Both the position numbers and the translations under genes were made by a program. From the IMG/VR virus record IMGVR_UViG_3300032665_002789, positions 1 through 20,451 of that record: DNA of 20,451 bases, one strand, 5' to 3'. This DNA comes from a virus. Shown here piece by piece: positions 1 through 18,828 of the stretch. Each line of letters starts with the position of its first letter. Positions within the stretch are counted from its first letter, which is position 1. The notes below the pieces were generated by a model. The model worked only from the letters and a program-made list of their open reading frames with translations. It had not been told where the DNA came from and did not search any database.

Positions 1-499
1 GTTCTGTTTTCGCAACATCGTTATCTGCGGCATGATATAGTTTTATAATTGCATCCTCTACATCAAGCCCTACATATCCGCTTTCTGTCAAAGAAGTTGC
101 ATCGACTATTGTCATCGGTACATCTAATATTTTGGCAATATTTTGTATTGTATAGGTTTTGCCAGTGCCTGAGCCGCCGATCAACAGCATATTACTTTTA
201 TCTATTTCTATGCCATCTATTACCGGATTCCCAATACGCTTCATATGATTATAAACGGCTACGGCCAAAATTCTTTTGGCGTTATCTTGCCCTATAACAT
301 AATCGTCAAGTTTATCTTTGATTATAGTGGGAATCAATGATATTTCTGTTGTAGGTGGGATATGATCTTGCTTAAGAATATCGAAGCATAAGATTACACA
401 CTCATCGCAAATATATACATCATTACCTGCGATTAGTTTTTTAACTTGTTTTTGACTTTTGTCACAAAAACTGCAATTATGATAATTTTTGTTTGTCAT
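1..499 (-). CDS. clpX: ClpX, ATP-dependent unfoldase (N-terminal part, cut by window edge)
   Basis: ClpX is the AAA+ unfoldase that recognises degrons, including the C-terminal LAA of tmRNA tags, and feeds substrates to the ClpP protease. The 166 visible residues match the family end to end. A zinc-binding domain has Cys9, Cys12, Cys31 and Cys34, with the typical LIAG and VYICDEC surroundings. It is followed by YVIGQDNAKRILAVAVYNH, a Walker A GGSGTGKT at about 108-115, and the LTESGYVGLDVE segment after it. The Walker B, sensor and substrate-loop regions lie outside the window. The ATG at 499-497 overlaps the stop of the upstream membrane-protein gene (ATGA), which suggests translational coupling. 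No ClpP is visible here, so it may work with host ClpP or alone as an unfoldase. The identification is secure; whether the rest of the gene is intact cannot be seen. Confidence 0.95.
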   Translation of the reverse strand, partial: MTNKNYHNCSFCDKSQKQVKKLIAGNDVYICDECVILCFDILKQDHIPPTTEISLIPTIIKDKLDDYVIGQDNAKRILAVAVYNHMKRIGNPVIDGIEIDKSNMLLIGGSGTGKTYTIQNIAKILDVPMTIVDATSLTESGYVGLDVEDAIIKLYHAADNDVAKTE

Positions 500-4655: not shown

Positions 4656-6170
4656 ATGGATGTAATCTTATTAAATGGTGGAATAGCTTATAGGCCAATT
4701 CTAATGCGCTCAATTGGTCCGTATAAAATTGCACATTGGTTACGAAAATATGGGTATCAGTGTCAGGTGATTGATCATGTGCTGTATTTCAATGCAGATC
4801 AGTTATATACAACACTCAAAAAGTTTATTACACCTGATACTAAAATCATTGGTTTAAGCACTACATTTATTTGCAACAATGCATATAAGCACTCCGACGG
4901 GCGCATCAAACGAATTCCAGAATTTGTATTGAATGTATTGTCTCAAATTAAGTTAGAACATCCGTCAATACGTTTTGTTATGGGCGGATATATAAGTGAT
5001 CGGCTTCCAAACTGGGATGTGTTTGATGTTACTATAATGAGTTATCTGTCAGCGCCTGAAGAAATTTTTCTAGAATATCTAGATTGGTTATCAGGCAGAG
5101 GGACAGAGCCTGTATTTGAGAAAAAGCGAAACAGTATAGGAACAGGTTTTGAGGATAAAATTATCTATTCTGCTGCTAGAAATCCAAAATACAATATAGA
5201 AACAGATGATTTTAAGTTTATACCGACTGATGTCATTCTGCCAAACGAACCATTGCCATTAGATGTAAGTCGCGGCTGCATTTTTACCTGTCGTTTTTGT
5301 CAATACCCGCACCTTGGCAAGCATAAACTTGATTATGTTAGGGCTATGGAACATATTTCTGCAGAATTATCTTACAACTTTGCTACTTTTGGATCTACTT
5401 CTTATTATATTATAGATGATACTTTTAATGACACAGAATGGAAACTCAGGTCATTCCATAGTGCTGTTTCAAAATTACCATTTAAGATCCGTTTTAGTGC
5501 ATATTTGAGAGCAGACTTATTAAATCATTTTGATGAAACCCCTTACATTTTAAAAGAATCTGGCTTAGTAGGCGCATACCACGGTTTGGAAAGCTTGCAT
5601 AAAGACGCAAGTAAAATAATTGGAAAAGGCTGGAATGGAAATTATGCAAGGGAATATATACCTTACCTTTTCCACAATATATGGAATAAAAGTGTTGCGC
5701 AACATTGCAATTTTATTGTAGGTCTACCGTATGAAAAAGAAACTGATGTATACGGTACAGTTAATTGGTTTATAGAAAATAATTTACATTCTATAGGATT
5801 TGATCTTCTTGGCTTGTATGGAGTAGATAACAGCGCAAGTCCAAATAGTATTTTTAGTGAATTTGATAAGAATCCACAAAAATATGGTTTCAGTTTTGAG
5901 GCTGATCCAATAAATTTCAATGGTACAACTATGAACTGGAAAAATTGTACATGGACAGTAGGCGAGGCCTATCGGGTAACACAATTGGCTACAAAAATGA
6001 CTAGAGAATTTTCAAAAACCAGAATGTGGTCTATACTCGCTCTATTATGGCAAGGATATGACTTAACTTATCTTATGACCACACCTCAAGAGCAGCTTTC
6101 ATGGGATGATATAAAAGCATCAACATTGACATCATTTGATGTATACTTTAATAAACTAATGCTATTATAA
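4656..6170 (+). CDS. B12-binding-like radical SAM protein
   Basis: Residues 207-216 read GCIFTCRFCQ. This gives the radical SAM CX3CX2C motif (Cys208, Cys212, Cys215) that binds the 4Fe-4S cluster and AdoMet. The N-terminal 150 residues have the alternating strand/helix pattern, with GPYKIAHWLRKYGYQCQVID and RFVMGGY, of the B12-binding-like domain found in class B radical SAM enzymes. However, the DXHXXG cobalamin motif is not visible, so cobalamin binding is doubtful. The AdoMet-domain strands run to about residue 370, including YIIDDTFND and NFIVGLPYEKETD. The remaining 130 residues have no known motif. The 504-residue length is normal for this group. The substrate is unknown; related phage genes are often near glycosyltransferases, as here. 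The Smr gene follows after 12 bases. Confidence 0.85.
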   Translation: MDVILLNGGIAYRPILMRSIGPYKIAHWLRKYGYQCQVIDHVLYFNADQLYTTLKKFITPDTKIIGLSTTFICNNAYKHSDGRIKRIPEFVLNVLSQIKLEHPSIRFVMGGYISDRLPNWDVFDVTIMSYLSAPEEIFLEYLDWLSGRGTEPVFEKKRNSIGTGFEDKIIYSAARNPKYNIETDDFKFIPTDVILPNEPLPLDVSRGCIFTCRFCQYPHLGKHKLDYVRAMEHISAELSYNFATFGSTSYYIIDDTFNDTEWKLRSFHSAVSKLPFKIRFSAYLRADLLNHFDETPYILKESGLVGAYHGLESLHKDASKIIGKGWNGNYAREYIPYLFHNIWNKSVAQHCNFIVGLPYEKETDVYGTVNWFIENNLHSIGFDLLGLYGVDNSASPNSIFSEFDKNPQKYGFSFEADPINFNGTTMNWKNCTWTVGEAYRVTQLATKMTREFSKTRMWSILALLWQGYDLTYLMTTPQEQLSWDDIKASTLTSFDVYFNKLMLL

Positions 6171-8109: not shown

Positions 8110-9003
8110 TCACCATTTCATATTGCATGTAATAGGATTAAGGTTCCAAGACCAAGAGGTCATATGGTGTTGGTGCATTGATAGTTGTGCACACCAGCCC
8201 CGTCTTACAAAGCCTCTACTGTCAATTACCAACGTATCAATGCCTGCATAACAATCCCAGTTGGTAAATTCTCTTAAGCTGTCGTTCTCACTTAGATTAA
8301 TATCAGCGTATTTGATCTGATCAACTGCTTGAATAACATTATTCTCATCCTTAGTTGTTATAAGATATGCAGTGTTGTCATGCGTTGAACGCAAGTTTTC
8401 TTTAATTTCTTCAGTATATTCTTTTTTCAGTTTTACAGGTTCTACGGGGTTTGAGAAAACAACCTGTTGACCAACATTGATGTTGGTTTTTTTGGAAAAC
8501 CACTCAATATCTTTTATTTGTTCATCATAACGATCTGGTAGCATTGGGACTGTAATATTGATATCCCGCACAACGTCTCGTATTGCGCAAATTTTGTCCG
8601 CTAGTTCCGGAAGCGATGTGTACTCGTAATGAACAGTGCCGGAAATATGCTTTATAACATTACCATGCTCTTCGAACCATTCAAGTGGAGCTGTGAGATT
8701 GGTACTAACTGTACACCCTGCTATTCTGTTGTTTAGCAAACGCAATAAGTTTCCAAACCACGGAACCAGTGTTGGTTCTCCTGAACCTCCAAATCCTATA
8801 TATAAACTTTTGCCGATTAAATCGTAATAATCACACATTCTATCGGCAAAAATTTCTACTTGATCCCAGTTGCCATTAGAAAAATGGCCATTTTTAAAAA
8901 CATCTGGACAGTATGAACAGTTTTGATTACACTCGTTGCCTAGATCCCAAGATACCTGTACAATTTTATTATCCCATCTTGAATGCATAAATGTTTTGAC
9001 CAT
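8110..9003 (-). CDS. Radical SAM protein, C-terminus possibly cut by a TGA
   Basis: NECNQNCSYCP gives the CX3CX2C cluster motif (Cys25, Cys29, Cys32 from the ATG at 9003). It is followed by the GFGGSGEPTL motif that contacts AdoMet, then VSTNLTAP and INITVPMLPD strands typical of the half-barrel. Near the C-terminus, WDCYAGIDTLVIDSRGFVRRGWC resembles the start of a SPASM-type auxiliary cluster domain. The frame stops after ITCNMKW, where such domains usually have further cysteines. The same frame continues for 13 codons past the TGA to a TAA at 8070-8068, ending five bases before the next gene. A TTG two codons upstream is a possible alternative start, but no ribosome-binding site favours it. 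Substrate unknown; a peptide or sugar modification role is possible. Confidence 0.8.
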   Translation of the reverse strand: MVKTFMHSRWDNKIVQVSWDLGNECNQNCSYCPDVFKNGHFSNGNWDQVEIFADRMCDYYDLIGKSLYIGFGGSGEPTLVPWFGNLLRLLNNRIAGCTVSTNLTAPLEWFEEHGNVIKHISGTVHYEYTSLPELADKICAIRDVVRDINITVPMLPDRYDEQIKDIEWFSKKTNINVGQQVVFSNPVEPVKLKKEYTEEIKENLRSTHDNTAYLITTKDENNVIQAVDQIKYADINLSENDSLREFTNWDCYAGIDTLVIDSRGFVRRGWCAQLSMHQHHMTSWSWNLNPITCNMKW

Positions 9004-9049
9004 AATCAATAATAGCTAAAAATTGTAATAACAGCGACTTTCCATTAGA

Positions 9050-10663: not shown

Positions 10664-11614
10664 TTAGGTTTTTTGAATTAGCACACGTCTACCAATTTTA
10701 TTAAATGTCATTCCTTTGACGACCAATTGATTTCTATTGTCTAAATCGGCAGACATTAGCCCTGCTGCAAATTGTTCAATTTGACCAATGCTAAAACTGT
10801 AGGTATTTTCCAAACTTAGCAAATAGAGCAGCAGATTTTTAATACGCAAGTATCCAATTTCTTGAAGACTATGCCAGTCTAAAACACCATCTGATAAGGT
10901 AACTTTTTTAAGATCAATTTCTGCCAATTGATTAGTTAACTGCCAAGCTTCATCAAGATGATTGATGCTCTTAAGAACATTTACATCCGCGATGCCAAAT
11001 CTTTCATCAATTTTTGGCCATACTACATTCCTAATGTAGTTTCTGTCATATTTGTTATCGCTGTTACTAGAATCCAGCACAAAAGGCACGCTATGATGCT
11101 CGGCATAGATTTCAATATCTGTCCTAGTAATATTTAACATAGGGCGAATAATTGAAACGCTAGCGTTGTACCAACAAGGACTGATTGCATTCATGCTTTT
11201 TAGACCTCGAAGTCCGCTGCCTCTAAACAATTTTAGGAGGAAATTCTCACACTGATCGTTGGCATGATGTGCAAGTAGAATGCAATCTGCTCCTGTATCA
11301 CAAAATGCTTTGTAACGTGCTTTGCGTGCTGCGTATTCTAGATTGTTTCCAAGGCCGTCTAAACACACAGAAACACCAATAAATGGCAGGTTATATTCGT
11401 GACACTGCGATTTAACAAACTCATGCCATGCAAGGCTATCGCTTTGAATGTTATGGTTAACATGCACTACCGAAATTTCACAAGGCCAGGCTTTTTTATT
11501 GGTTGCCAGCCAATGCAATAGTACCATGCTATCAACTCCGCCGCTAACTCCTACAATAGGTTTTTTGAACCCTGTAAGAATCTGCGATACTCGTTGAACA
11601 TCAAGTAGATCCAT
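10664..11614 (-). CDS. tilS: tRNA(Ile)-lysidine synthase, TilS
   Basis: TilS converts C34 of the CAU-anticodon tRNA-Ile to lysidine, using ATP and lysine, so that it reads AUA as Ile. The PP-loop SGGVDS is at 24-29. It is followed by VVHVNHNIQSDS, EYAARKARYKAF, LLAHHANDQCENFLLKLFRGSGLRGL and DSSNSDNKYDRNYIRN, all diagnostic of the TilS core. At 316 residues it is close to the short TilS type and lacks much of the long C-terminal domain of the E. coli enzyme. The start at 11614 follows GGAG by six bases; an in-frame ATG nine codons upstream has no such site. A phage-borne copy suggests reliance on AUA decoding, or a phage tRNA outside this window. Confidence 0.92.
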   Translation of the reverse strand: MDLLDVQRVSQILTGFKKPIVGVSGGVDSMVLLHWLATNKKAWPCEISVVHVNHNIQSDSLAWHEFVKSQCHEYNLPFIGVSVCLDGLGNNLEYAARKARYKAFCDTGADCILLAHHANDQCENFLLKLFRGSGLRGLKSMNAISPCWYNASVSIIRPMLNITRTDIEIYAEHHSVPFVLDSSNSDNKYDRNYIRNVVWPKIDERFGIADVNVLKSINHLDEAWQLTNQLAEIDLKKVTLSDGVLDWHSLQEIGYLRIKNLLLYLLSLENTYSFSIGQIEQFAAGLMSADLDNRNQLVVKGMTFNKIGRRVLIQKT

Positions 11615-11692
11615 TTCGTTCTCCATGTTTGAGCATAGCATGCAACTAGAACATAGTCAATACTTTATAGACTAATGTAAACTAGATTTAGT

Positions 11693-14094: not shown

Positions 14095-14817
14095 TTATAA
14101 GGCTACCCACGCTTTGCGATCGTCTGCTCGGGAACTATTAAAAATAAGATCCAGTGCTTCAGATAATTTACCATCATCTAAAAGTGGTACAAGTTTTGGA
14201 TTAGAAAGACTATGAGTCCAATCTGCCTCTTCTAAACTGCCTAACCCTTTTGCTCTAGTTGGCTTTGGAGCTCCTTTCCAATCTTCTGCATTATAATTTT
14301 TATAGTCATCGGCATACCAGTAAAAACGTTTTTTGCCTTTTTCCTGTATAATAAAAGGAGTTTGAAACACATAAAATACTGGCGCCAGTTTTGGATCAAA
14401 CAACTCAGGCCAATGTAGATAGAAAAAATTGACCAATAAAGCAGTAATATTAGCACCGTCAGGATCTTGATCTGCTGCCAAGTAAACTTTTCCGTATCTC
14501 ATATTAGATCTTACAGCTTTTTGTCCTAGTCCAATGCCTAATGCTGTCATAATATCTGCTATAGTTTGGTTTTCAATAATAGTTTTGGCTGCTTCGCCTC
14601 TAACATTCATAATCTTACCTCTGAGAGGCAACGCTCCGTGTATTTCAGGATTGCGTACAGCTGCTACCATGCTTTTTGCGCTATTATGACTGAGCAGTCC
14701 GTTTGATAACACAAATGTTTCGTCATCCAAAACTTGTATATCATACATGTTTGTTTTTCCTATAGGAGAGATATCTATTATCTCTTCCATTAAAAACAAA
14801 CTTTCATTTATATTCAT
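14095..14817 (-). CDS. 39: Topoisomerase large subunit, C-terminal part, with C-intein (gp39/60-like)
   Basis: The first 45 residues are a C-intein. YDIQVLDDETFVLSNGLLSHN matches intein block F and G, ending in the His44-Asn45 pair needed for Asn cyclisation, followed by Ser46 as the +1 nucleophile. The remaining 195 residues are the rest of the topoisomerase TOPRIM domain and its tail. SAKSMVAAVRNPEIHGALPLRGKIMNV continues the EGDSA motif, and the metal-binding DQDPDG lies at 116-121. The start ATG overlaps the endonuclease stop by four bases (ATGA). The intein may begin at Met10, giving a 36-residue C-intein. After trans-splicing with the product of 16160-17977 the mature subunit would have about 627 residues, close to the joined gp39 plus gp60 of T4-like phages. 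Confidence 0.93.
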   Translation of the reverse strand: MNINESLFLMEEIIDISPIGKTNMYDIQVLDDETFVLSNGLLSHNSAKSMVAAVRNPEIHGALPLRGKIMNVRGEAAKTIIENQTIADIMTALGIGLGQKAVRSNMRYGKVYLAADQDPDGANITALLVNFFYLHWPELFDPKLAPVFYVFQTPFIIQEKGKKRFYWYADDYKNYNAEDWKGAPKPTRAKGLGSLEEADWTHSLSNPKLVPLLDDGKLSEALDLIFNSSRADDRKAWVAL

Positions 14818-16112
14818 TGTTGTGCCTTACTTAATATATTAGATATTGTAGTCTTATAATCATTTGGATCCATTATAATGGATCCAAATAAGTGTTCTTT
14901 TTTTAGCATATGTTCTTTATAAGTATGAGAATCACCGCCGGCAATTTCAACATATATATTTTGATGAATAAACCATATATCATAAAATAATTCACTATTG
15001 GGATATCTCTGGTTGAAGACAAAATCTTCTGTCTCCTTTAAGCCAATTTTACACAAGTAATCGTATATCCAAATTTCATAGAAACTCTTCAAAATAGTTC
15101 CGCAGTCTGTGTAAGAATAACAACTATAATTATTGCGAAATATTTTCCTTTTATTTGTCCTATAATTAGGTAATATTTTTGCAATATATTCTTCGATATC
15201 GTAAAGCGATAACTCAAAAAACTCTTTTGCAACATCATAAAATTTATAAAATCTCAATTCTTTTTCTAAATTATACATATGATATTGATATAGCGGATTA
15301 CGCTGGACAATGTTGGTAACTTTTTTTATAAAACCAGAAATCAAATCATTTGAATCTGTATTTTCTACATGGTTGATATGCACCTTAAGATAATTTGTTG
15401 TTCCCTGTATCTTACCAAATTTTTTGATAAATGTTGCCAGACTTAAATTAGTATTCTCTTTCCATTGATTATATTTTGCTGTACCAATTTCTACACCGTA
15501 TTTGTCTATAAGGGCAGATAATGTAATCGCTTTACGTTTTTGTATGTCTTTCCATTCATCTCCCCTGTTTTTTTCTACATACCCTTGATAACTTCTAGAA
15601 TGATTGGCTTTCCTTATCCATTCCTGGCGATCTTTCTTATTTTTTTTAAACCAGTCAGGTGATCTACTTTGAGATAGCTTATAATCCTCTATTGACTGAT
15701 GATTAATTTTATAAAATGGGCTGCTGTTTCTTGTGTGTATTTTCTTTAAAGCCTCCGATTCGCTTAATCCATATGCTTTGCTGATAAATTCTACACTGTT
15801 TTTGTTGAGTTTTTTTCCCAAGCACTGATGTTTTGAAAAACACAGGTATAATGCGGTATGTCGCCTACGAACACCTGTTGGAATAATATTGGTATCATTG
15901 ACTGTATGTTCTATACCACATATATCGTGGTTATAATCGCCACACCATGCGCATCGCAATTTATTGTGTTCGATATTCCATAATTCAAGGTATTTGAATA
16001 TTGATATTTTGTTTTTGGTTAAGGTTGCTCTCAAACGAAAACTTCTGTCATGGTCTGTATCTTTTGATCGAAACTTAATACCAGTTTTTTCACATTTAAA
16101 TTCTTTTAGCAC
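14814..16112 (-). CDS. Free-standing homing endonuclease, PD-(D/E)XK/Vsr-like
   Basis: The 432-residue protein begins at a GTG with AAGGTG five bases before it. Residues 54-69 (CAWCGDYNHDICGIEH) look like a zinc finger, and further Cys/His follow at 91-97. A helical region has KAYGLSESEALKKIHTRNSSPFY. Two copies of a short DNA-binding-like repeat follow at about 199-217 and 226-243 (LIDKYGVEIGTAKYNQW and FIKKFGKIQGTTNY). The C-terminal 90 residues have the PD-(D/E)XK nuclease pattern: Glu346 in SFYEIWIYDYL, Asp378 in FYDIW and Glu389 in IYVEIAGG. No LAGLIDADG or GIY-YIG motif is present. Its placement between the two intein halves fits the endonuclease family of fractured genes. The stop overlaps the start of the C-terminal topoisomerase gene. 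Confidence 0.8.
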   Translation of the reverse strand: MLKEFKCEKTGIKFRSKDTDHDRSFRLRATLTKNKISIFKYLELWNIEHNKLRCAWCGDYNHDICGIEHTVNDTNIIPTGVRRRHTALYLCFSKHQCLGKKLNKNSVEFISKAYGLSESEALKKIHTRNSSPFYKINHQSIEDYKLSQSRSPDWFKKNKKDRQEWIRKANHSRSYQGYVEKNRGDEWKDIQKRKAITLSALIDKYGVEIGTAKYNQWKENTNLSLATFIKKFGKIQGTTNYLKVHINHVENTDSNDLISGFIKKVTNIVQRNPLYQYHMYNLEKELRFYKFYDVAKEFFELSLYDIEEYIAKILPNYRTNKRKIFRNNYSCYSYTDCGTILKSFYEIWIYDYLCKIGLKETEDFVFNQRYPNSELFYDIWFIHQNIYVEIAGGDSHTYKEHMLKKEHLFGSIIMDPNDYKTTISNILSKAQQ

Positions 16113-16137
16113 GATATCACCTTCTGTAAGATATATT

Positions 16138-16145
16138 TATTTATC
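16138..16145 (-). promoter_or_regulatory. Possible late promoter for the endonuclease gene
   Basis: The minus strand reads GATAAATA, one base from the T4 late consensus, about 26 bases before the GTG start of the endonuclease and inside the 47-base gap after the N-intein gene. It could give the endonuclease and the C-terminal half their own transcript. Confidence 0.35.
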
Positions 16146-16159
16146 ATAGAGGGCGATAC

Positions 16160-17977
16160 TTACTGTAAATTATGTGCCATTAATAAATGGATATCAATGT
16201 CTAGATTTTTAGCAGCGACCTTTTCAATAGTAGCAGTGCATATATTTAAAACAGAGAATAAATGATTCTCGGACGTTATACATGTTTGATTAATTACACC
16301 ATTTGTAAAAGAAATTGATTTATTAAATTTTTTATCATCAAAATCATTAACAGAAATGATCTCAAAAAATGTAGAATCCATATTAATTATAGAGGAAAAC
16401 AGTTTATGTTTAGACTTGTCTAAATCTTTTCCTTTTACAATTTCATATTGGTTTAGTTGTATGTTATAAACAGGTATTTTATGCTCAAGACTTATTTTTA
16501 ATATTTTTCCAGATGACGTTGTAATGGTAATTCCATCTGTTATTTTTGCCTGTTTATTACATACTGGTTTAATTCTGCCTTTATGCGTTAAAACTAAATC
16601 ACCTAGTTGGATGTCTTTAATTTTTTTTCTACTAAATTTTCCATCTTCGAATATTGCGATTTCTGTATCTTCTGCTACACAGTCACCTTCACAAATTAAC
16701 AGGATGCATTTGGTTCGTTCTTTTGATGTTGCATCTAATAACTTAGGAACTTTGTTTCTAAGTAGTTTTCTGTTGGCCTTGGCAACGTCAGCGTCATCCT
16801 TCTTTTGAGTACGTGCTGCACATCTAGCATATACTGTGTCTATCCATTCTTTATTATGCTTTATTATGTCTTTGAAAGTAATGTCATTTTCAAGTGTATT
16901 CTTAATATATTTGTCTACTTCGTCATTAATCAACCTTGTCTTGCTTTGGCTATCAAAATTAGGAGCATGCATTACCGTGGTATTGTAAATTAACAGTCCT
17001 TCGGCAATATCGCTTCGATTAGGAGTTAAACCTCGTTTAGAGCTTTCTCGTTCTAGAGCTTTTAAAATACCGCTGAAAAAAAGTCTCTTGAAAGTATCAA
17101 TATGTTGACCACCATTAAATGCAGGAATGTCGTTTACTGTACTGTGTAAAAACTCTCCTTCGTCTGCAAAATTAGGTATTAGATAATAATTGCTAACAAA
17201 TTTTTCTTGATTGATTGAAACAATAATGGGCTTCTTCTGAGAAAAAAATGTTTTATCAACTGATTTTGCAACAGTGATTTTTTGTCCATTAAATGTAAAT
17301 TTGATATTGGGATGGTTAGCTGCTACCTCGTAAACTCTTGCATATACAAAATCGATCGGCAAGTGAGCTTTTGGAAAGACAGTAGAACTAAGCGTAAAAG
17401 CAGTTTCAGTTCCAGATTTCATAGAACTTTTAAAAATTCTAGGTTCGCTGATATCTAAGTCTGGTAATAGATCTGTCCCTTCTTTAAAAGTCTGTTGAAA
17501 TCTTTTACCATCTCTCTTGATATCAATTGAAAATTCTTTTGAACAACTTACTACTACAGAAGCGCCAATGCCATTGGTACCTCTAACTTCCTGTCGTTCG
17601 CCGAAGTTTCTCCCTGCACGAGCCTGCGTAAGTGCAATGGTCGCTTTATGCATGCGCTCATTTTCGTCCCAATCGATGGGAATACCTCTTCCATCGTCAG
17701 CAACACTAAAGGTAAGAGTTTTTGGATCGTATGTAACATCAATCTTGCTTCCGTGCCCGTGTCCTATAACTTCATCCAAACTATTGTCAAAAATTTCTCG
17801 TAAGGCACAGTAAACTGCAGGTGTCCAAGAAATTTCTTCGGCTATTAATTGATTATTTTTCCAGTTAATTACAGTTTGTGTATGTAGATTACGACTGCCT
17901 AGATACATTTCTGTTCGTAAACGATGATGAGCGTAATCGCTTAATTTAACAATTTCGTCTGTTGTTTTTTTAACCAT
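16160..17977 (-). CDS. 39: Topoisomerase large subunit, N-terminal part, with N-intein (gp39-like)
   Basis: Residues 1-432 are the ATPase and start of the TOPRIM domain of a T4-type topoisomerase II. The GHKL motifs are in order: EIFDNSLDE (Glu61, Asn65), DDGRGIP at 94-100 and GTNGIGAS at 133-140. The N-extein ends in ILLICEGD, the catalytic TOPRIM acid. The N-intein follows directly (173 residues), beginning Cys-Val-Ala-Glu-Asp-Thr (block A, Cys1), then KDIQLGDLVLTH and two block-B-like segments (SLEHKIPVYN and TSENHLFSVLN), ending ...LMAHNLQ at a TAA. The ATG at 17977 fits the family start (MVKKTTDEIVKLSDYAHHRLRTEMYLGS), and 20 upstream codons are not conserved. The product is expected to splice in trans with that of 14095-14817. 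Confidence 0.93.
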   Translation of the reverse strand: MVKKTTDEIVKLSDYAHHRLRTEMYLGSRNLHTQTVINWKNNQLIAEEISWTPAVYCALREIFDNSLDEVIGHGHGSKIDVTYDPKTLTFSVADDGRGIPIDWDENERMHKATIALTQARAGRNFGERQEVRGTNGIGASVVVSCSKEFSIDIKRDGKRFQQTFKEGTDLLPDLDISEPRIFKSSMKSGTETAFTLSSTVFPKAHLPIDFVYARVYEVAANHPNIKFTFNGQKITVAKSVDKTFFSQKKPIIVSINQEKFVSNYYLIPNFADEGEFLHSTVNDIPAFNGGQHIDTFKRLFFSGILKALERESSKRGLTPNRSDIAEGLLIYNTTVMHAPNFDSQSKTRLINDEVDKYIKNTLENDITFKDIIKHNKEWIDTVYARCAARTQKKDDADVAKANRKLLRNKVPKLLDATSKERTKCILLICEGDCVAEDTEIAIFEDGKFSRKKIKDIQLGDLVLTHKGRIKPVCNKQAKITDGITITTSSGKILKISLEHKIPVYNIQLNQYEIVKGKDLDKSKHKLFSSIINMDSTFFEIISVNDFDDKKFNKSISFTNGVINQTCITSENHLFSVLNICTATIEKVAAKNLDIDIHLLMAHNLQ

Positions 17978-18036
17978 TGTAAATTCCGTGATAGCGTTGT
18001 ATAAGAATAAGCATAACTGAATACATTTTGCAGTCA

Positions 18037-18042
18037 ATTATA
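18037..18042 (-). promoter_or_regulatory. Possible -10 box upstream of the topoisomerase gene
   Basis: TATAAT on the minus strand lies 60 bases before the topoisomerase ATG, just downstream of the hairpin at 18048-18073. No good -35 is placed 17 bases upstream, so it would need an activator or is chance. Confidence 0.3.
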
Positions 18043-18277: not shown

Positions 18278-18517
18278 TTATGCTCGTTTGCTTACAAATT
18301 CGTTTAGCTTGCTTGCAAGTTCAGTAATAGCAGTGCTCGACGGCACCGCTGGGATTTCAGGATATTCGACAACCTGTTGATTATATTCTTGTATCATTTG
18401 GATATCACGTTTTTGACAATAAACACTATCAATAGCCTGTTTTTTACTATGCCAATCCTCCATAAGGATGTCCTTGGCCATCTTGAGCAGTTCTAGTCTA
18501 ATCTCATACGCTTCCAT
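18278..18517 (-). CDS. Small hypothetical protein, helical
   Basis: The 79-residue protein begins MEAYEIRLELLKMAKDILMEDWHSKK, an amphipathic helix. A Pro-rich stretch follows (YPEIPAVPSS), then a second helix (ITELASKLNEFVSKR). The pattern recalls small conserved proteins of T4-like cyanophages and pelagiphages, but I know no function. The ATG is preceded by CAGGAGAATAAA, a good ribosome-binding site. It lies directly downstream of the tmRNA with no terminator I can see between, so it may be cotranscribed from the tmRNA promoter. Confidence 0.8.
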   Translation of the reverse strand: MEAYEIRLELLKMAKDILMEDWHSKKQAIDSVYCQKRDIQMIQEYNQQVVEYPEIPAVPSSTAITELASKLNEFVSKRA

Positions 18518-18540: not shown

Positions 18541-18793
18541 GTGAGTGGGCTCACTTCTGTTCCAAGGTAGAACCCGCACCCGTTGAGGTTAGGCCGCTAG
18601 GCGGACATCCTCAAATGCAACGTTGTTATCGTTAGCATTTATTTTTTGTCTTGCGTTAAGGTAGCTTGCGCACCAACACCTACTTCAACCCTTAATGCTG
18701 CCAATCGAATCCTGCGTCACCCCCCTATGGTGGAAGTGCCGGGTGCTGCCCCCGGGTCTTGACGAACTTATTTGATTGCTATCAACAGTGTCA
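18541..18793 (-). ncRNA. ssrA: Circularly permuted (two-piece) tmRNA
   Basis: tmRNA frees stalled ribosomes by acting as an alanyl-tRNA and then as a short mRNA for a degradation tag. The gene here is permuted: the CCA end lies upstream of the 5' end. The acceptor piece has a T-stem CCGGG/CCCGG (18755-18751, 18743-18739) with loop GGCAGCA, then CACTTCC and ACCA ending at 18728. Three bases later the coding piece starts at 18724 with GGGGGTGACGCAGGATTCGA, matching the universal tmRNA 5' end. The acceptor stem pairs perfectly over 7 bp, with G3-U70, the alanine identity pair. GATTG (18706-18702) can pair with CAATC (18778-18774) as P2. The tag frame follows at 18636. The outer ends are estimates. 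The T-loop is not the usual TTC type. Permuted tmRNAs are known from alphaproteobacteria and some cyanobacteria. Confidence 0.93.
18589..18636 (-). other. tmRNA tag reading frame
   Basis: The resume codon GCT at 18636 opens a 15-codon frame, ANDNNVAFEDVRLAA, closed by TAA at 18589. The ANDN start and LAA end are those of proteobacterial tmRNA tags; the C-terminal LAA is the signal read by ClpX and ClpA. An A-rich single-stranded stretch precedes it, as expected after the first pseudoknot. Confidence 0.93.
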
Positions 18794-18797
18794 ATTT

Positions 18798-18828
18798 TAT
18801 TTATACAACCTATTGCACTGTATGTCAA
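18798..18828 (-). promoter_or_regulatory. Promoter of the tmRNA: sigma70-type with late-type -10
   Basis: On the minus strand TTGACA (18828-18823) is followed after exactly 17 bases by TATAAATA (18805-18798). The first is a perfect -35. The second is both a near-perfect -10 (TATAAA) and a perfect T4 late promoter motif. The gene could therefore be read early by host sigma70 polymerase and late by the phage-modified enzyme. The start would be near 18793. Confidence 0.8.

Follow-up and report, generated by a model that had tools for sequence, protein, structure and literature searches.

A circularly permuted, alphaproteobacterial-type tmRNA gene with a three-nucleotide intervening sequence in a putative jumbo phage contig

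The stretch of DNA analysed here, referred to as the window, is a 20,451-base IMG/VR record, and its minus strand carries, from position 18828 to 18544, a complete, circularly permuted tmRNA gene of the alphaproteobacterial type. ARAGORN called a permuted tmRNA at 18820-18498 (-) with the tag ANDNNVAFEDVRLAA, and the Rfam model tmRNA_permuted (RF04321) matched over its full length (model positions 1-213) at 18792-18589 with 85.3 bits (E 2e-15; cut-off 47 bits). The model alpha_tmRNA (RF01849), a comparison proposed in a first-pass annotation that had read the locus as a permuted tmRNA, gave a significant match at 18849-18544 (74.6 bits; cut-off 50 bits) and came top of the permuted types in its clan. 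The 3' end of the RNA, near 18544, was placed from the alpha model alone, and the ARAGORN end at 18498 is probably too long because it overlaps the next open reading frame (ATG at 18517). The features discussed below are as follows, with the basis of each in brackets.

18823-18828, minus strand: -35 box TTGACA, with a 17-nt spacing to the -10 box (sequence, conserved at loci)
18798-18805, minus strand: -10 box TATAAATA, which also holds the T4 late-promoter core TATAAAT (sequence, conserved at loci)
18718-18792, minus strand: acceptor (3') piece, spacer and start of the 5' piece (RF04321 match, parsing)
18739-18755, minus strand: T-arm CCGGG-GGCAGCA-CCCGG with a 5-bp stem (parsing; same fold when folded alone)
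18738-18732, minus strand: acceptor 3' strand CACUUCC (sequence, Rfam, parsing, covariation)
18731, minus strand: A73 (sequence, parsing)
18730-18728, minus strand: encoded CCA (sequence, Rfam, parsing)
18725-18727, minus strand: 3-nt intervening sequence TAG (parsing, pattern scan, local fold)
18718-18724, minus strand: acceptor 5' strand GGGGGUG (parsing, covariation)
18589-18636, minus strand: tag frame, with resume codon GCT (18636), tag ANDNNVAFEDVRLAA and stop TAA (ARAGORN, Rfam alignment)
18544-18588, minus strand: 3' part of the mRNA-like piece, end approximate (RF01849 alignment to the model end)
1-499, minus strand: N-terminal 166 residues of ClpX, the gene running off the window (translation)

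The acceptor 3' strand and CCA lie upstream of the acceptor 5' strand, which is followed by a GGAUUCGA element and then by the tag frame, with its alanine resume codon, hydrophobic AA end and stop codon. All acceptor positions pair (7/7), including the alanine identity pair G3.U70 and a second wobble, G4.U69. Only the triplet TAG (18727-18725) separates CCA from the acceptor 5' strand, and the same triplet occurs in the overlapping IMG/VR contigs L005 and L021; in the local hairpin folded alone, A-C-C-A-U-A-G forms a 7-nt loop closing the 7-bp acceptor stem. The first-pass annotation was thus accurate on the permuted order, the 7-bp stem with G3-U70, the three-base spacer and the tag frame running to TAA (18636-18589). 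It had also set the extent at 18541-18828; the gene does lie there, although on the minus strand the -35 box begins at 18828.

The minimum free energy of the whole precursor was not below that of shuffled sequences (z -0.17), which is unsurprising for an RNA built partly of pseudoknots, and support for the gene therefore comes from the covariance models and from covariation rather than from folding energy. Covariation was scored on loci found via the topoisomerase gene or in Sinorhizobium phage Phosso, none of them selected for pairing, with locus L020 omitted because its acceptor reading is uncertain. Among the 11 distinct acceptor stems of these relatives, 97.4% of positions were paired, compensatory changes were present at three positions, and the covariation score was 0.481, four times the 0.124 of shuffled stems and a value reached by 0 of 500 shuffles. 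The G3.U70 pair of the window is invariant across the aligned relatives. An acceptor covariation count on the pattern-scan set was discarded as circular, since the parser had demanded 7/7 pairs.

Relatives of the locus were collected with the N-terminal part (435 aa) of the topoisomerase large subunit encoded just downstream of the tmRNA, yielding 19 IMG/VR loci; in nearly all of those reaching far enough upstream, a permuted tmRNA at gathering score precedes the topoisomerase gene. The large subunit has its closest counterparts in Sinorhizobium phage Phosso (53%; genome 469 kb) and Agrobacterium phage Atu_ph07 (50%; 490 kb), and relatives lie in virus-classed contigs of 453 and 519 kb. Judged by these sequence relationships, the window is therefore part of a jumbo phage of broadly T4-like character. 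The gene is thus phage-borne, as had been proposed, and "T4-like" holds in the broad sense given by a split type II topoisomerase and relatives of this size. An alphaproteobacterial host, which the first-pass annotation had read from the tmRNA, is likely from the 50-53% topoisomerase identity to rhizobial jumbo phages; the alpha-type tmRNA alone is no proof of it, because phage Melnitz carries one and infects a gammaproteobacterium (PMC9004378). At the DNA level, the only match in the phage collection was one of 32 bp in Acinetobacter phages, taken as chance. Across the clade the tags have kept an ANDN close to their start and a terminal LAA. Atu_ph07 gave no tmRNA match at E <= 0.001, and the gene is therefore not essential to such phages.

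A few loci of the clade depart from the common pattern. In L009 and L010 (about 5035-5316) the acceptor stem of the permuted tmRNA pairs at only 5/7 positions. Similarity to L014 in the acceptor piece and to L007 in the 5' piece gives the appearance of recombined halves, and these loci lack the promoter at its usual upstream place. L020 (about 5397-5628) carries a permuted tmRNA without an encoded CCA (CGCTCTCCAAAA), so its phage would need CCA addition.

Several other genes of the window were recorded. The topoisomerase large subunit (14095-18037, -) is broken within the EGD|SA TOPRIM motif: its first open reading frame ends in an N-intein-like sequence (CVAEDTEIAIFEDGKF...), its last starts with a C-intein-like one (...VLSNGLLSHN|S), and between them lies a 432-aa open reading frame with no Pfam match, an arrangement suggestive of a "fractured gene" in which a split intein is combined with a free-standing endonuclease. 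A TilS-like PP-loop protein at 10664-11641 (-) (PF01171, 180 bits) is a possible phage tRNA(Ile) lysidine synthetase, and two radical-SAM-like proteins are encoded at 4656-6170 (+) and 8110-9009 (-), the second scoring under the Pfam cut-off.

An element of the form TTGAC[A/T]-N16/17-[T/C]ATAAAT, or close to it, was present upstream of the tmRNA in 12 of the 13 loci compared, its -10 box sitting 17-32 bases ahead of the structured RNA, and the summed promoter score was 134 against a maximum of 115 in 100 shuffles. By its sequence, this would be a sigma70-type promoter whose TATAAAT core could serve T4-like late transcription as well, so that dual use is possible. A T4 late promoter as such was considered and set aside: TATAAAT is well placed, but TTGAC[A/T] at 16-17 nt in 12/13 loci fits sigma70 better.

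The intervening sequence was compared in two surveys. Pattern scans with fixed flanking bases allowed 0-8 bases (0-30 in one viral scan), and a separate, even draw of alphaproteobacterial genomes gave 94 parsed genes. In the even draw the median spacer was 34 nt, with <=3 nt in 1/94 and <=8 nt in 9/94. Over all sets together, at least four distinct cellular genes among the matches listed had a 2-nt spacer and at least eight a 3-nt spacer, the distinct viral genes sampled numbered seven and three, respectively, and none from cells or viruses had a spacer of 0 or 1 nt in this fixed-flank form. Because the scans require fixed flanking bases, these counts are samples and the 2-nt floor holds within the scanned form. 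Spacers of 2-8 nt were nonetheless frequent, with dozens of cellular and viral examples among alphaproteobacterial genomes and IMG/VR contigs, and permuted phage tmRNAs have been published, so that the earlier description of the arrangement as unusual stands only in that 3 nt falls in the short tail of the even draw. The literature searched yielded nothing on short-spacer tmRNAs.

Within the window's phage clade the spacer is highly variable, with 2 nt in L016, 3 in the window, 5 in L012, L013 and L018, 18 in L017, 71-100 in several others and 410 in Phosso; 3 nt is therefore short but not exceptional. Longer spacers of jumbo and marine phages (L007, L008, L024-L060) often open with TAAACACA or GTAAACAT; the complement, followed by TGAT or a similar sequence, closes them, and the two ends make a stem that runs on from the acceptor end. 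Of 53 distinct viral sequences, 50 have U or C immediately before G1, and the window is the sole one with G at that position, so that its cleavage site may be less clean; together with the second G.U pair of the acceptor stem, this G is an oddity of the window. Cellular tmRNAs of Pelagibacteraceae, SAR116, OCS116, Holosporales, Rickettsiales and others combine spacers of 2-8 nt with a 7-bp stem containing G3.U70 and an encoded CCA, as in the window, but their G1 is usually preceded by U or C.

We favour, with a probability of about 0.82, the reading that the locus encodes a functional, two-piece tmRNA of the alpha type, transcribed from a sigma70 promoter, processed by the host, acting with host SmpB and adding a tag ending in LAA for degradation by ClpX. 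During infection, host RNA polymerase would transcribe the precursor from the TTGACA-N17-TATAAA promoter, and the RNA would fold so that A73-C-C-A-U-A-G caps its 7-bp acceptor stem as a loop. Cleavage ahead of G1 by host RNase P would follow, and host 3'-processing enzymes would trim the UAG to leave CCA, the two pieces remaining base-paired with no re-joining. Charged with alanine through G3.U70, the tmRNA would be brought by host SmpB to stalled ribosomes for rescue, and the added tag would be recognised for degradation by ClpX, whether the host's or the phage's own.

Two surveys bear on the part assigned to the host. A search of 12 related records, Phosso, Atu_ph07 and the contigs of 453 and 519 kb among them, gave no SmpB match at E <= 1, so SmpB would be the host's; a self-contained phage trans-translation system with its own SmpB is not what these 12 records contain. 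Among alphaproteobacterial genomes, 108/114 scored above the permuted-tmRNA cut-off, nearly all with a single strong match, and in this class a permuted tmRNA is normally the cell's tmRNA. Processing across a spacer of 2-8 nt is plausible by analogy, since alphaproteobacteria with such spacers depend on genes built in this way. How the two ends are separated, a question raised by the first-pass annotation, is a real one, but it had already been posed for the permuted tRNA-Tyr of Thermofilum pendens, whose 1-nt intervening sequence presents the same puzzle of opening a tiny acceptor loop (PMC3978253). That RNA is an archaeal tRNA, and permuted tRNAs have been proposed to be re-ligated elsewhere, whereas a tmRNA stays in two pieces.

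The possible degradation partner is also encoded in the clade. The window holds only the first 166 residues of ClpX, and the whole gene is present in the overlapping contig G008 (L287), where it scored 533.7 bits with TIGR00382 (equivalog cut-off 370.75 bits); matches above this cut-off were obtained in 9 of 10 records searched, and ClpP is also present in the four largest genomes. The phage protein has the zinc domain (CSFC/CDEC), the pore-1 motif GYVG and the IGF loop, and among the nine phage ClpX sequences read (L287, L293-L300, including Phosso and Atu_ph07) GYVG is kept in 9/9 and the IGF loop in 8/9. In all nine, however, the degron-contact loop, which lies beyond the part encoded in the window, reads RKN (GRKN), compared with GRKH in E. 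coli and in 21 of 22 parsed alphaproteobacterial ClpX proteins. In E. coli ClpX, the RKH loop touches the ssrA tag through its histidine, a residue of importance for specificity (PMC7652416); the loop is not part of the curated TIGR00382 family definition, and it bears on tag reading. The change is not tied to the tmRNA, because Atu_ph07 has RKN and no detected tmRNA. A bolder proposal, which we regard as doubtful, is that the clade supplies the larger part of its own tag-and-degrade pathway, made up of the tmRNA, the His-to-Asn ClpX and, in the largest genomes, ClpP, with only SmpB borrowed. If so, tagged proteins could go to phage ClpXP, or phage ClpXP could read degrons other than those of the host.

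A tmRNA could also serve as a decoy that occupies SmpB, AlaRS or stalled ribosomes, blocking host trans-translation instead of completing it. A tag-less phage tmRNA (DS6A) is reported to inhibit the endogenous tmRNA when expressed in E. coli (PMC11915505), and a phage without detectable smpB would compete for that of the host; however, the acceptor stem and CCA are retained here, and so, across a divergent clade, is a complete tag frame with its ANDN and LAA, for which a decoy would have no use, making this role improbable. We give slightly less weight still to the idea that the gene is a decaying, nonfunctional passenger from a host, its short spacer and double-wobble stem being marks of decay. 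It is rare for an acceptor stem to hold two G.U pairs or for a G to stand at -1, the stems of L009 and L010 are imperfect (5/7) and the gene was not detected in Atu_ph07, yet cellular tmRNAs have equally short spacers, and the compensatory changes, promoter, tag and locus are conserved across divergent phages. A chromosomal origin of the contig, whether from the host itself or from the remnant of an integrated prophage, is very improbable: such genes also occur in cells of this class, but jumbo phages give the closest matches to the topoisomerase large subunit, and the relatives' contigs, up to 519 kb, are classed as viral.

As a phage tmRNA, the gene has close company. Two-piece forms made up 53 of 133 unique phage tmRNA structures, mostly aquatic (PMC9004378), and tmRNA and even SmpB have been described in huge phages (PMC7162821). 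Melnitz (on OM43) and Mosig (on Pelagibacter) are likewise large lytic myophages with a complete two-piece, alpha-type ssrA (PMC9004378), but they belong to a different phage clade, and their genes are reported with a glutamine riboswitch, for which Rfam gave no match at gathering score in the window. Marine phage tmRNAs found by pattern scan have spacers mostly of 28-29 nt, against 3 in the window. Phosso (PV764938) is a related jumbo phage with one permuted, alpha-type tmRNA, ClpX and a related topoisomerase, but its tmRNA, with the 410-nt spacer, lies about 28 kb from the topoisomerase gene rather than just upstream. The Sinorhizobium jumbo phage AP-J-162 also has one tmRNA, ClpX and related topoisomerase genes (PMC11242549). 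Phage-borne permuted tmRNAs and short spacers are thus already known or common, and the gene is mostly an ordinary member of a known family; its interest lies in the spacer-length comparison and the link to ClpX rather than in its being phage-borne or permuted.

The loci described here contribute a jumbo-phage clade with a conserved permuted tmRNA, mostly at one locus, whose spacer can be as short as 2 nt or as long as 410 nt. Cells and phages alike tolerate a spacer of 2 nt, with none seen at 0 or 1 nt, and this comparison opens the minimal substrate of RNase P and of the 3'-processing enzymes to direct testing. A phage ClpX with an altered degron-contact residue, in turn, provides a concrete hypothesis on how phages may use trans-translation.
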